NCBI GenBank assembly: GCA_030062745.1
Contig: CP099848.1
Span: forward strand, 15,041,568-15,105,567
DNA: 64,000 nucleotides
Source of the DNA: Capitulum mitella
Taxonomy: Eukaryota; Arthropoda; Thecostraca; Pollicipedomorpha; Pollicipedidae
Direction of reading: 5' to 3'
In this document: piece by piece, positions 26 to 56,407 of the stretch
Position numbering within the stretch: the stretch's first letter is position 1
Layout: the number at the start of each line of letters is the position of its first letter
The notes under the pieces: generated by a model
Database searches by the model: none
What the model was told of the DNA's origin: nothing
The model's input: only the letters and a program-made list of their open reading frames with translations
Program-made: the position numbers and the translations under genes

Positions 26-3000
26 CTGTGGTTCACGCGGCTGGCGCTGCTGGTGCGGCTCCGACAATTCTCCGTGGCCGAGCAGGAAGCCGAGGCCTGG
101 GGAGACCTGGGCACGGCCGACCTCTTCTTCCAGGTTGGTCCCGTCTGTCAGAAGGATCCTGGGCACGGCCGACCTCTTCTTCCAGGTTGGTCCCGTCTGT
201 CAGAAGGATCCTGGGCACGGCCGACCTCTTCTTCCAGGTTGGTCCCGTCTGTCAGAAGGGTCCTGGGCACGGCCGACCTCTTCTTCCAGGTTGGTCCAGT
301 CTGTCAGAAGGGTCCTGGGCACGGCCGACCTCTTCTTCCAGGTTGGTCCAGTCTGTCAGAAGGGTCCTGGGCACGGCCGACTTCTTCTTCCAGGTGGTCC
401 CGTCTGTCAGAAGGGTCCTGGGCACGGCCGACCTCTTCTTCCAGGTTGGTCCCGTCTGTCAGAAGGGTTCCACTCGGTCGGCGGCGTGACGTCTCGGTCC
501 TCGCGCATCACGGCCTCCGAGCTTCTGGTCCGCCCGTCACTGTGGAAAATGTGCGGAACGCTGTCTGACTGGTGTTCTGAGTTCGGTTCCCGTTGCCACT
601 GACGGGAATGGTAAAGTTATATCTGTATGCATTCTGTCCGGCTTGCCGTTCCATCGCCATCCAGTAGTGATTTTGGTCTATCCTAGTGCTGCATTGATTA
701 AACGTGTTCGTTCATCCGGGTCTTCAAACCATTAGACGAACTTTTGTTGTGTCTGTTGTTGATTGGACGATTGAGGCTGCATGGTTTCTTTGTCAGGCAC
801 GGTTTTATCCATTCTGACCAGGTGACGTATAATATGTCAGAGTGTTTAGCTGCATATCGTGTCTGTGGTTTTCCCGTCCCGGTGAGCTATTTTGTTCTTT
901 GTGTCATCAACGTGACTCATCTCTCCTCCTCAGCAGTAGTGCTCGGACTTGTGCGGCAGGCGTTGGGGCCAGCTCGAACCTCTTAGTATTGCCGTATTTC
1001 CGTTCCGATTCAGTGTCATCTGCCTCCGTTACAGTACTACCCGGACCTATACGGCGGTCGTTTGGGCTAGCTGGAGCCTCTCAGTATTGCCGTATTTCCG
1101 TTCTGATTCAGTGTCATCTGCCTCCGTTACAGTACTACCCGGACCTATACGGCGGTCGTTTGGGCTAGCTCGAGCGTCTCATTATTGCCGTATTTCCGTT
1201 TTGATTCATTCTTACCTCGCTCCGTTACAGTACTACCCGGACCTATACGGCGGTCGTTTGGGCTAGCTCGAGCCTCTCAGTATTGCCGTATTTCCGTTCT
1301 GGTTCAGTGTTACCTCGCTCCGTTACAGTACTACCCGGACCTATACGGCGGTCGTCGGGGCTCGCTGGTGCCGTTCAGTTTCCGCGTGCTGCTGGCCGAG
1401 CTGCCGCGCTATATGGGGAAGTACCAGACCAGCCTGGACCGACTGTACCAGATTCACGCTGTATGCGAACAGGTGGGCTCGGGCGTCTGCATGTCCTCAA
1501 CTGTGGGTCGGCTTTGATGTTGGGAGGTGCTGTGCGCAGACTCAGATGTTGCTTTTTGGGAGCGTGCGCTTAGTGCTTCGTTATTGTCTGAAGCTGTCGG
1601 TTGTTGGTTTCCGTTGCCTTTGCTGTTTCGTAAGGTTTTGGGGTTGATGCCAGCAGTGGAAAAGATTTTCCGGTGCCGATGGTCTTTGCCATCAGAAGAC
1701 TGGGCTATCCCGACTCCAATGACGTCGTTTGTAGATATTCTCATGTTTCATTATTTGTAGCCGTGCGTGAGTTGCCTACAGACAATGGTATTGATGTCAT
1801 TCTTGACACCTGATATGAACCACATCTGCTGCTTTTGCCTGGCGGGCCCGCCGCCTCCTCTGGACCGTGTTGATTGATTGCTGACGATCGTCAGAGGCCG
1901 CCAGACCGTGTTGACTGATGGCTGACGGTCGTCAGAGGCCGCCGGGCCGTGTTGACTGGTGGCTGACGGTCGTCAGAGGCCGCCATACCGTGTTGACTGA
2001 TGGCTGACGGTCGTCAGAGGCCGCCAGACCGTGTTGACTGATGGCTGACGATCGTCAGAGGCCGCCACACCGTGTTGACTGATGGCTGACGGTCGTCAGA
2101 GGCCGCCGGGCCGTGTTGACTGATGGCTGACGGTCGCCAGAGGCCGCCGGGCCATGTTGACTGATGGCTGACGGTCGCCAGAGGCCGCCGGGCCGTGTTG
2201 ACTGGTGGTTGACGGTCATCTGAGCCGGTCGTCTGGGCCAGCTGACCCTCAGCCCGCCGTCAGATCCTGTCGAACCTGGCCGCCGGCCGCTCGGAGGACG
2301 GCTCGTCGGCGGACCTGCCGGAGGCCTGCCGCCAGCAGTCGGTCGTCCTCTGGAACAGCCGACGGATCAAAGTTGTGTTCTCCATCGTCAACTGCTGCGT
2401 CGGCATGAAGGTGAACCGGCGGCAGGGACGCCGGGGGGGGGGGGGACTGAAGATACGCGTGATACGTGGATAAGATACGTGGATACCCTTGGGAAACGTG
2501 GTCCAGGACTCGGCTTTCCGAATTTCGACCCCAGGAGAACACGGAGCACATGGCACGAGTAATTCGTCCTCTGAATTCGGCTCAGGAGCGTCCGTTTGGA
2601 CAGAATAACAAAAGACCGTCTTGCAATATAGCACGTGGCAATAAAGCAAAAGGATGGGCATTGACAACAGGCCCTAAAGCATTCATATGCAGTCTGGCGA
2701 AATGATTACCGTGCTGCGCAGGCCGACGTAGAGCGGCCGGACCTCGTTGTTTGTTTTTTTTCTTTGCGCCTCGCCTCCATGTCATGCGGCCCTGTGCTCC
2801 GCGGCAGGACTACGAGCAGTCGATCGAGTGCCTGGACCAGCTGTCGGCGGAGCTGCCGGCGAGCTGGCCCAGCCTGCGCTCGGCCGTCGGACGGGTCTAC
2901 CTGCAGCTGGGTAACCTGACTGCGGCCCGCGGCGTCTTCGCCTCGGTCACCGGTGGGTGGTCCTGTCGCCGAGCCGGCGGGGATACGCGCCGCTGGACGG

Positions 3001-4216
3001 AGCCACCTGTGTGCCCATTTTAGTGCTACCGGTGCACTGCGTGCTGGCTAGGCAGGACATGCGTATCTCACACATGTTGTCGTTATGTCCGTTGCCATTT
3101 CTTTTCTTTTCGGCGCGTCGTCGTGTGGTTTGCGATCACACAGTTGTCACTCAAAGGAAGGGACTACGCAGGAGCGGACATAGCTCCCCTTCATCGGCGT
3201 CCGAGCCCCAGAGCTGGTCTCCACTGCCGTGTTGGAGCGGTCAGCGGTACCGGTCGGTGAGCAGGTCCGACTACCTGTGCTGACGGCCCGGCTGCCCGGC
3301 AGAGAAGCCGCCGACGGAGGACGGCGGCGGAGACCGGCTCTCCACCCAGGTGTTGGTCAATGACGCCTTCCTGGCCATCGGCGAGAACCGATTCGCAGAG
3401 GCGCAGACCAAGTTCGAGCGCGCCCTGCAGCTGGAGCCGGAGAACGCCACGGTGAGACGCCCCCCCCCCCGATCCGAGCCTGCCAAACGGACGGCTGCCG
3501 ATCCCCCCTCGCCGCGGACTTGCAGTCGGTGGGCCGCATTACGGCCCAAGACAAAGCGGCGACTCGGCTTAATGCGAGTGCAGTAATGCGAGTGCATTTC
3601 ATGCGAGTGCAACAGATATTTGCAAACTGAGATAGCCGAGCTGTTTATCCTTGGTGTAGAAATCGCTTTCTGATCTACACTGTTGGTCCATGTTTTATAA
3701 TTACGGATTGAAATGCCGTGTCCCATGTTTTGTAGCGAATTCCCTTTTCTTTAATTCCATTTTTTTTTAATTCCATTTCTGGTTGTTGCAGTTGTCACTG
3801 GACGAATAAGTGACGTAATACAGTGAGCGTAAATAAACGATATCATGTGTGAATCCTTGCCACCTGTCGTTCAGGCTTCTTATGTGGTGCTTTAAGGTGG
3901 AGCCTTAAACGGAATCTTCAATGTCATCACCCGCTCACAGGCTGACGAAATCGCTCACTGCCCTCAACGCCGATGGACATTTCCCTGTCTCTGTCCGTAC
4001 GAGGGATGTCGCTGTGCATTCTTTTGAGAGGACCGGGCCCACCCAGTGTTAATTTGCGCCCACCCAATGTTGGTTTGCCCCCCCCCCCCCCAATATTTTC
4101 TGCTGGTTGTAAAGGGAAATGAGCAATAACGAAAAGAACGACCTCAGTAAGAGATAGGCATAAAGTAAAGAATAAAGTTAAAAACGATGCATATGTCTGT
4201 CTTTCTATCTTCCATC

Positions 4217-32484: not shown

Positions 32485-34197
32485 TCAGCACGACCCGAGC
32501 CGTGTCACTGGTACTGGGACAAGAGGTGCTGCTGCTGGTGCTGCTGTATTTGTTGCTGCTGCGGCTGCTGTGGTTGCGACTGCTGCATTTGCTGTTTGCT
32601 GCTGCTGCTGCTGTTCCTGCGGCTGGGCGTGAGGCTGCTGTTGGTGCTGCAGTTGCAGCTGTTGCTGTTGCGGCGGCGGCTGCATGGCGGGCAGCGGCGG
32701 CTGCACCACCATCGGCTGCAGCGGCAGCGCGCCGCCGTCGCCGGCCGCCAGCGGCTTCAGGCTGTAGAGCGGCTTGTCCGGCTCGGGGAAGCCGGGCGCG
32801 CCGGCCGCGCTCACGGCCAGCGCCAGCGGGTCGGCACGGCACGCGTCGCGCCGATGCGCCGCCAGAGCGTCCCTCCGGACGAACGTGCGCCCGCAGCTCG
32901 GACAGCTCAGCCCCTTGCGGCAGCTGTGCGTCAGCAGGTGGCGCTTGAGCGTCGACTTGTCGCGGAACGTCTGGCGGCACACGTCGCAGACGAATGGCTT
33001 GGCACCCGTGTGGATGTGGCCGTGGCGCGTCAGGTGGGATGAGTTGCTGAAGCGAGCGCCGCACACGTAGCAGATGTACGGCCGCTCGCCCGAGTGCAGC
33101 TTCTTGTGGTTCCGCAGGATGCGCGCGTCCGTGAACGCCTTCGGGCAGACGTCGCACTGGAATGGCCGCTCGCCGCTGTGGTACATCTTGTGCTTGTTGA
33201 ACCAAAATGAGTCTGAGAAGCCCTTGCCGCAGTGCTCGCAGTAGAACGGCTTCTGACCCGTGTGCTGGATCTTGTGCATCTTGAGCGCGCCCGAGTCGAT
33301 GAAGGCGCCGTCGCACTGGTCGCAGCGGTACGGCCGCTCGCCGGTGTGCGTGCGCAGGTGACGCTGCAGCACGCCCTTCTGCCGGAAACGCTGGTCGCAC
33401 AGCTCGCAGTGGTACGGCTTCTCGCCCGAGTGGATCAGCTTGTGCTTCTTGAGCGCGTGCGGCTCGCGGAAGGCGCGCTGGCACACGTCGCACGCGTGCG
33501 GCCGCTGGTTGGTGTGCGTGCGCCGGTGGCTTTGCAGCGAGGTGTGCTGCGAGAAGGCGCGGCCGCACAGCTCGCACTGGTACGGCTTGTCGCCCGTGTG
33601 CAGGCGCCGGTGCGTGCGCAGGCTGCTGGCCAGCGTGAACCGTTTGTCGCACTCGTCGCAGCGGAACGGCCGCGTCTCGCCGTGCTTGCGCATGTGCTCG
33701 ACAAACGCCTTGGGGTTCTTGAACTGGGCACTGCACACGTCGCAGAGGTATTTGGCCGCGTCCCAGTGCGGTGTGCGCTTGTGCAGCGCCAGCTCGGCCG
33801 GCGTGGCGCACTGCTGGCCGCAGTGGCACGTCAGCGCCGAGCCTGCCGCCGGCCCCGGCTCCTGCTGGCTCTCAGCACCGCCGCCGCCGCCGCCGCCATC
33901 GGCCGACTCGGCCGTCGGCCGACACTTGGCCGCGTGACTGGCCAGCTGGGCGGCCGAGCGCAGTCGGCGGGAGCAGGTCACGCACCGGAACGAGCCGCGC
34001 CGGGCGGCCGCCGGCCCGACCGCCGCCGCCTCCTCCTCCACAGCCTGAAACGGGCGCACAGGGCCGCTCACACTGGCGGCCAAAACTACTGCCGGCAAGA
34101 CGTCACGTGCACAGTGAAGGTCTCTCATCTTCTCCCGGCGCAAGGCTTCAAGGCTTCCTTCGGTAGTCGCGATACAGACCCTGCTTAACTCCGCCAT
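32485..34197 (-). CDS. C2H2 zinc-finger protein, 10 canonical plus 3 degenerate fingers, Q/A-rich tail
   Basis: A single open exon. The start was set at ATG 34197 (context CAGAATGGCGGAG), giving 570 residues. The frame is open further upstream to about 34345, so a longer or spliced N-terminus is possible. Finger 1 (FRCVTC...) is C2HC and finger 2 (CHCGQQC...) is irregular. Ten regular C2H2 fingers follow with TGEKPY-type linkers (from [10 protein letters not shown] to [10 protein letters not shown]). The last ([10 protein letters not shown]) ends in Cys instead of His. The C-terminal 100 residues are Gln-, Pro- and Ala-rich, typical of an activation or low-complexity region. It is presumably a nuclear DNA-binding regulator; I cannot assign an orthologue. 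ZAD-coding exons lie 1.2 kb upstream on the same strand and might belong to it. Confidence 0.85.
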
Positions 34198-38399: not shown

Positions 38400-38816
38400 C
38401 AGGGGTGTCCATTTGTACTTTTTTTGGAGGGCCCTGGCCCAGTTAATGTTGATTTGTGTCCACCCAATGTTGGTTTGGGCCCCCCAATATTTTCTGGTAG
38501 TTTTAAAGGGAAATGAGTAATAATATAAATGAGTAATAATAACAAAAAGAATGCCCACAACAAATACGACAGGCAGAAATTAAAACATTAAGTCTAAAGC
38601 GATGTATTGATCTATCATATATGCTCACACATACACCTGTGGACATCAAGATAAAAGCAGTTTTCCATTCCATAAAAAGCAACAATGAAACTTATAAATT
38701 TCCACTGGCTTAGATATGGTGGGCTAAAGCCATTGAGAAACCCACATTTGGGGGAAGGCTAGGTTGTTGGATGCTTGACTTAACCCCCCAATCATTTACA
38801 GATATTGACATTGCTG
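38400..38816 (+). mobile_element. hAT-type MITE, copy 2, with target duplication
   Basis: Starts CAGGGGTGTCCAT and ends with CAATGTCAATATC on the reverse strand. It is flanked by CACAGAAT (38392-38399) and CACAGGAT (38817-38824), an 8-bp duplication with one mismatch, as expected of the hAT superfamily. Homologous to 4000-4441 and 56015-56407. This copy has lost most CpGs found in the other two. Confidence 0.85.
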
Positions 38817-56014: not shown

Positions 56015-56407
56015 CACGGATGTCGATCTGTATTCTTTCGAGGGGGCCCTGGCCCACCCAATGTTGGTTTGGGCCCCTCCAGTGTTGGTTTTGGCCCCTC
56101 CAATATTGTCTGCCAGTTTTAAGGGGAACTGGGCAAAAATAACGAAAGGAAGGGTTGCAATTGATAAAAGATAGGCAGAAAGTATAGAATAAGGCACCAA
56201 GCGATTTGCGTTCTGTTTTCTGTATATACCTATATACACGGGATGTATGCAACTTTTTATTTGAAAAACGAAAACAGAAAATTCAAAAATTTCTATTGAT
56301 CAAACTAAAGTGGGCTAAATCCATTGGAAAACCCACATTTGGGGGAGGTTAGGTTGTCGGGCCCACGGCTCGGCCCACCCAATCATTTACAGAAACTGAC
56401 ATTCCTG
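56015..56407 (+). mobile_element. hAT-type MITE, copy 3, with target duplication
   Basis: Starts CACGGATGTCGAT and ends ACTGACATTCCTG. Flanks GCTGTGTC (56007-56014) and GCTGTATT (56408-56415) match at 6 of 8 bases. Homologous to 4000-4441 and 38400-38816. It is non-coding. Confidence 0.83.

Follow-up and report, generated by a model that had tools for sequence, protein, structure and literature searches.

Minisatellites across splice junctions multiply both ends of one intron in Capitulum mitella

One intron in the 64,000-nucleotide stretch of Capitulum mitella DNA analyzed here (the window) has both ends tandemly multiplied, its donor in a 52-bp array and its acceptor in a 98-bp array. We put at roughly three in four the probability that these arrays are minisatellites that arose by tandem duplication across splice junctions and are tolerated because splicing prefers the sites that flank the short real exon. 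The structure is real, of a known kind, and commoner than a preliminary description of this DNA held; there it was presented as a rare oddity of one intron, and this did not hold up, as three further acceptor arrays lie upstream in the same gene, junction copies occur at other exons of the genome, and lancelets (amphioxus) carry comparable minisatellites, termed mirages. The gene to which exons a, b, and c belong is presumably TRAPPC12, and its features in window coordinates are as follows.

26 to 133, plus strand: coding exon a (LWFTRLALLV...DLFFQ), by translation; phase 0 at both ends, acceptor gtgtttcag/CTG, donor CAG/GTTGGT
106 to 468, plus strand: 52-bp minisatellite of seven copies, native copy first, by TRF
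134 to 444, plus strand: six extra donor copies, in units that start with GT and end with CTTCTTCCAG, the GT-AG form of a 51- to 52-nt intron
954 to 1366, plus strand: 98-bp minisatellite, 4.2 copies of the acceptor and exon b start, native copy last, by TRF
1035 to 1328, plus strand: stretch that follows the first of three extra acceptors (AG ending at 1034, 1132, and 1230) and runs to the native AG at 1328
1329 to 1472, plus strand: coding exon b (YYPDLYGGRRGSLVPF...AVCEQ), by translation; phase 0
1863 to 2224, plus strand: 41-bp minisatellite, 8.8 copies, in the intron after exon b, by TRF; stops 39 nt short of exon c
2264 to 2410, plus strand: coding exon c (ILSNLAAGRSEDG...VGMK), by translation

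The donor array, previously put at about seven copies, was confirmed by TRF (positions 106 to 468; period 52, 7.0 copies, 97% matches) and by listing the copies, whose last exon or exon-like bases are 133, 185, 237, 289, 341, 393, and 444. Each 52-bp unit joins the final 28 nt of exon a to the opening 24 nt of the intron and so contains the donor. The sixth step is 51 nt where the others are 52, so the frame of the last copy is changed. Copy 6 reads CAG/GTGGTC in place of the expected CAG/GTTGGT and scores 6/9 against the donor consensus; the other six copies score 7/9. Within the six extra units, 13 of the 17 positions before the AG are pyrimidines, and variants along the array are both shared and private among the copies.

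The four acceptor copies of the preliminary description are likewise present, with last intron bases at 1034, 1132, 1230, and 1328, spaced exactly 98 nt apart (TRF on 954 to 1366: period 98, 4.2 copies, 91% matches); a fifth, decayed copy can be made out by eye close to 934. In one register, the unit comprises the 62 intron nucleotides that precede the acceptor junction and then 36 nt of exon b from its start, and pyrimidines occupy 12 to 13 of 17 positions at the four copies. Between −11 and +26 the stubs do not differ from the native copy, although 17 of the 98 columns vary elsewhere; this could hint at constraint or at recent exchange. The exon assignment also stands, with exons a and b both continuing in frame and their join reading DLFFQ/YYPDLYGG, and translation from each of the first three acceptors does end at codon 12, in an in-frame TAG. 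For the 41-bp array between exons b and c, an ungapped scan showed no copy that matches the exon c acceptor at an identity of 62% or above; its unit contains a short inverted repeat, CTGACG-GT-CGTCAG.

Both arrays are far beyond chance expectation. For the 40 nt around the donor, the closest second copy is 100% identical, and for those around the acceptor 97.5%; the best values in 200 dinucleotide shuffles of positions 1 to 1480 are 62.5% and 60%, respectively.

Seven donors and four acceptors give 28 pairings, and it had been proposed that only the first donor with the fourth acceptor yields the normal protein. This is correct for the exact protein; the reading frame, by comparison, is kept by 6 of the 27 other pairs. 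The native frame runs without a stop through exon c in seven pairings (donor/acceptor 1/4, 2/3, 3/2, 4/4, 5/3, 6/2, and 7/2), the last six of which add 50, 100, 52, 102, 152, and 169 codons, respectively. A stop is met by the end of exon c in 16 of the 28, and five are frame-shifted with no stop that far.

Matches to the encoded protein are mainly to TPR families in Pfam. A phmmer search of 181 of its residues against PDB found no match at E 0.001, and a search with 298 residues and a cutoff of E 10 returned 16 sequences, mostly TPR proteins, including two designed TPRs below 0.001. Searched against the genome, the protein falls at one place, with seven exon-by-exon matches that all lie within G000:C10:15039200 to 15044518; no second copy of the gene was thus found that could confuse the picture. 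The window has a GC content of 0.495, and tRNA and Rfam scans of its 64 kb found none. Elsewhere in it, a 21-bp unit (GGCCCCTCCAATGTTGGTTTG-like) recurs in similar form in three short arrays that lie far apart, at 4037 to 4086, 38445 to 38488, and 56051 to 56108, and are perhaps parts of one dispersed element, and a 168-bp repeat at 33226 to 33603 is apparently coding and, by eye, C2H2 zinc finger-like.

The preceding exons of the gene sit in the 10 kb directly upstream of the window (L002), which holds three more arrays that copy an acceptor and exon start with the native copy last.

L002 7882 to 8169: 61 bp x 4.7 array ahead of exon TDPVSELMLQYM
L002 9015 to 9387: 61 bp x 6.1 array ahead of exon AGCYRAAVNLTG
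L002 9762 to 9980: 33 bp x 6.8 array ahead of exon a

The exon a acceptor array is the weakest of these, with three copies at 65 to 75% of the junction, one of which lacks the AG. Its TRF call stops 20 nt before the window; in a gapped alignment the 33-bp repeat stays in register up to and across the native exon a acceptor, with a score of 78, compared with at most 50 in 200 letter shuffles. All 11 of the stubs listed at exons TDPV, AGCY, and b hit an in-frame stop at codon 12 to 13, and the three listed for exon a have no stop within 20 codons. Over the ten exons of this gene stretch we mapped 19 junctions (several by eye), and arrays lie at five of them. Compared with 5 of 160 sampled junctions elsewhere, counted as both ends of each exon match, this is an excess by Fisher's test (P 0.0014); without the two junctions flagged earlier the count is 3 of 17 (P 0.03), and without the weaker exon a array as well it is 2 of 17 (P 0.14).

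To gauge how widespread such copies are, we scanned a genome of 477,042,490 bases in 16 contigs and hand-picked 80 exons, mostly short internal ones, with 17 arbitrary 10-kb stretches as background. Of these exons, 60 were chosen among 138 kinase-domain matches and the other 20 among 108 mitochondrial-carrier matches. Five of the 80 have junction copies, of the acceptor in L027, L028, L054, and L074 and of the donor in L066; that in L028 was found by a junction-copy scan and the other four by TRF. At L074 the acceptor is present in two copies that are 100% identical. The donor array in L066 (579 to 876 on the exon strand) has about ten copies of a kinase exon donor in a 28-bp unit and decays away from the exon; its native donor has no preceding AG. 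L028 has its own two-copy acceptor duplication, and the same acceptor is duplicated in L027, on a different contig; both exons, which we take to be GSK3-like, are 94.9% identical in DNA, and because of this identity the two may share one old duplication, repeated origin being the other reading of their sequences. No TRF arrays were found at the junctions of the 20 mitochondrial-carrier exons. The genome also has projectin-like kinase exons, an arthropod feature.

Measured against background, the sampled exons show at most a mild (about threefold) excess over random seeding and none that is clear by coverage. By TRF, 4 of at most 160 junctions (both ends of every match, presumed to be junctions) lie in arrays, compared with 1.18 expected from seed length (P 0.03). 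Array coverage at score 80 is 3.5% in exon flanks, 2.9% in the 170 kb of arbitrary sequence, and 0.8% in the exon matches. The junction-copy scan found copies at an identity of 0.8 in 4 of 80 acceptor zones and 2 of 80 donor zones, against 2 and 3 of 80 in control zones; at 0.7 the figures were 4 and 6, against 4 and 8. The lack of a clear excess by coverage is evidence against strong seeding at junctions.

Donor motifs were also searched for across the whole genome. We counted triples, defined as three motif occurrences in a row 15 to 45 nt apart, for the strong donor CAGGTRAGT, a motif that does not match exon a's own donor (CAG/GTTGGT). With similar numbers of singles (6124 for the motif and 6165 for its reverse), there are 121 triples versus 0 and 188 pairs versus 13. 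The 100 of the 121 triple matches that were listed fall at 22 places, two of which are near-identical twins on contig 6, leaving at least 21 arrays. A scrambled motif with 8343 singles yielded 12 triples in 4 arrays; the reversed scramble (5926 singles) yielded 33 triples, which may be one or several arrays, and this control is weakened accordingly. Per motif, arrays are about seven times as frequent for the donor as for the scramble, whereas the reversed donor, with its zero triples, yields no ratio; the donor arrays are defined by the motif and only putatively placed at exon ends. The acceptor motif TTTTYYNCAGG gave no triples in either orientation, and CTGCAGG gave 1174 versus 682 reversed, counts that are not normalized to single motifs. 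We note that the twin arrays (G000:C6:6607092 and G000:C6:6633480) lie about 26 kb apart with identical listed letters, which suggests a recent segmental copy.

We propose that such arrays would begin when a segment spanning a splice junction is duplicated in tandem, with slippage or unequal exchange adding further copies. Whatever the length of the duplication, one copy would stay joined to the exon body, and so the native donor comes first in its array and the native acceptor last, an order that needs no selection. With six of the seven donor copies equal and the acceptors all at 12 to 13 pyrimidines of 17, site strength alone does not mark the native sites. Exon definition favors the sites that bound the shortest exon, and for this reason the mature mRNA would normally use donor 133 and acceptor 1328: the native donor gives an exon of 108 nt, compared with 160 to 419 nt for the other donors, and the native acceptor one of 144 nt, compared with 242 to 438 nt. 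Messages that stray to an upstream acceptor would mostly lose the frame and be removed, and donor units left behind could later be excised exactly and without trace, since each has GT-AG ends like an intron; the L066 array, where no AG precedes the native donor, indicates that this form is not a general requirement. On this view the arrays would be close to neutral, carried along as passengers.

The same unit form invites a reading in which splicing is stepwise, any donor copy being used first and the leftover units being removed as 51- to 52-nt introns to give the same mRNA. The six units that start with GT, end with CTTCTTCCAG, and carry 13 of 17 pyrimidines before the AG would allow this; however, such a route is not general, as the L066 array exists without it, and 51 to 52 nt is short for an intron, so we consider stepwise splicing quite unlikely. 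The extra sites might instead act as a dosage switch, competing with the native ones so that a set fraction of messages loses the frame and is degraded, with TRAPPC12 output tuned by the number of copies. Tuning through nonsense-mediated decay, as the preliminary description suggested, is possible: six of the seven donor copies are equal by consensus count, the 27 non-native pairings divide into 16 with a stop by the end of exon c, five shifted, and six frame-restored, and the 11 stubs at exons TDPV, AGCY, and b all stop in frame at codon 12 to 13. However, a stop is common to the copies within an array, so the 11 trace back to no more than three founding events; the three exon a stubs run 20 codons without one; and lancelet mirages are reported to leave splicing undisturbed (PMC3087553, PMC3902484). 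A dosage switch is therefore improbable, if a little less strained.

There is least to say for the arrays having been made by assembly. Copy number in the lancelet gene PGBD5 does differ between two assemblies (2 or 7; 3 or 6), although the authors of that report state that re-sequencing speaks strongly against assembly error (PMC3902484). Here, the mixture of shared and private variants is unlike the mechanical echo of a single copy, each array is under 420 bp, and the same pattern recurs at unrelated sites, all of which makes an artefact highly improbable. We thus prefer the reading of the arrays as tolerated minisatellites born of junction-spanning duplication.

Whether tandem duplication starts preferentially at splice junctions in this genome, making exon borders mutational birthplaces of minisatellites, is a further proposal that we advance tentatively and rate at somewhat below even odds. 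It is supported by the at least 21 strong-donor arrays, against none for the reversed motif and four for the commoner scramble, and by arrays at 5 of 19 junctions in one gene. It is weakened because the excess at sampled exons is about threefold and absent by coverage, the reversed scramble has 33 matches, and the donor-motif arrays are defined by their motif. If junctions do seed minisatellites, each array would be a natural experiment on how the spliceosome chooses among equal copies, and the arrays would also probe how new introns may arise by tandem duplication. RNA reads could directly test the donor-motif arrays of this genome, of which there are at least 21. There is also a warning for gene annotation, in that predictors may call array copies as exon, as a gene predictor did with the mirage copies in lancelet PGBD5 (PMC3902484).

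Lancelet mirages are minisatellites whose unit spans an exon-intron boundary, and their hosts include Adh3, the globins BflGb6 and BflGb9, troponin C, and PGBD5 (PMC3087553, PMC3902484); the second report contributes PGBD5 and cites troponin C. Units are 10 to 72 bp in Adh3, about 150 to 160 bp in the globins, and 60 and 108 bp in PGBD5, and regular splicing is described as undisturbed. In these accounts, mirages are characterized by a position at the 5′ or 3′ boundary, several loci per genome, and copy number that is unstable between haplotypes. The arrays described here agree in that the units of the donor array (106 to 468) and the acceptor array (954 to 1366) both cross an exon-intron boundary, either boundary is duplicated, and several loci are involved (the presumed TRAPPC12 gene and 5 of 80 sampled exons); from this anatomy of the sequence, they qualify as members of the mirage class. 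As in the passages on lancelets drawn on here, they occur on the donor or acceptor side, and many copies keep the AG/GT. A further likeness is reported for BflGb6, where edge copies are left out of homogenization (PMC3087553, PMC3902484).

The Rogers model, cited in PMC3087553, has introns gained through tandem duplication of an AG/GT segment. The 52-bp unit resembles that segment in carrying CAG/GT, so that each copy is intron-shaped; the difference is that the copies here sit within an intron that would exist without them, and any new intron gained from them would be hypothetical. Cephalochordates are the only mirage hosts named in the relevant passages of PMC3087553 and PMC3902484, which describe no intron with both ends multiplied, and we found no report of mirages outside lancelets in the open-access literature. 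Unlike the lancelet cases as presented there, those described here have an arthropod host, both ends of one intron multiplied, and five arrays at the junctions of a single gene, and they come with a sample frequency and a motif control within one genome. Probably new are the arthropod host, the multiplication of both ends of one intron, the five arrays in one gene, and the excess of donor-containing arrays. If tandem duplication does start preferentially at splice junctions, mirages would form a general, measurable class beyond lancelets, one that continually supplies new introns and alternative splice sites.
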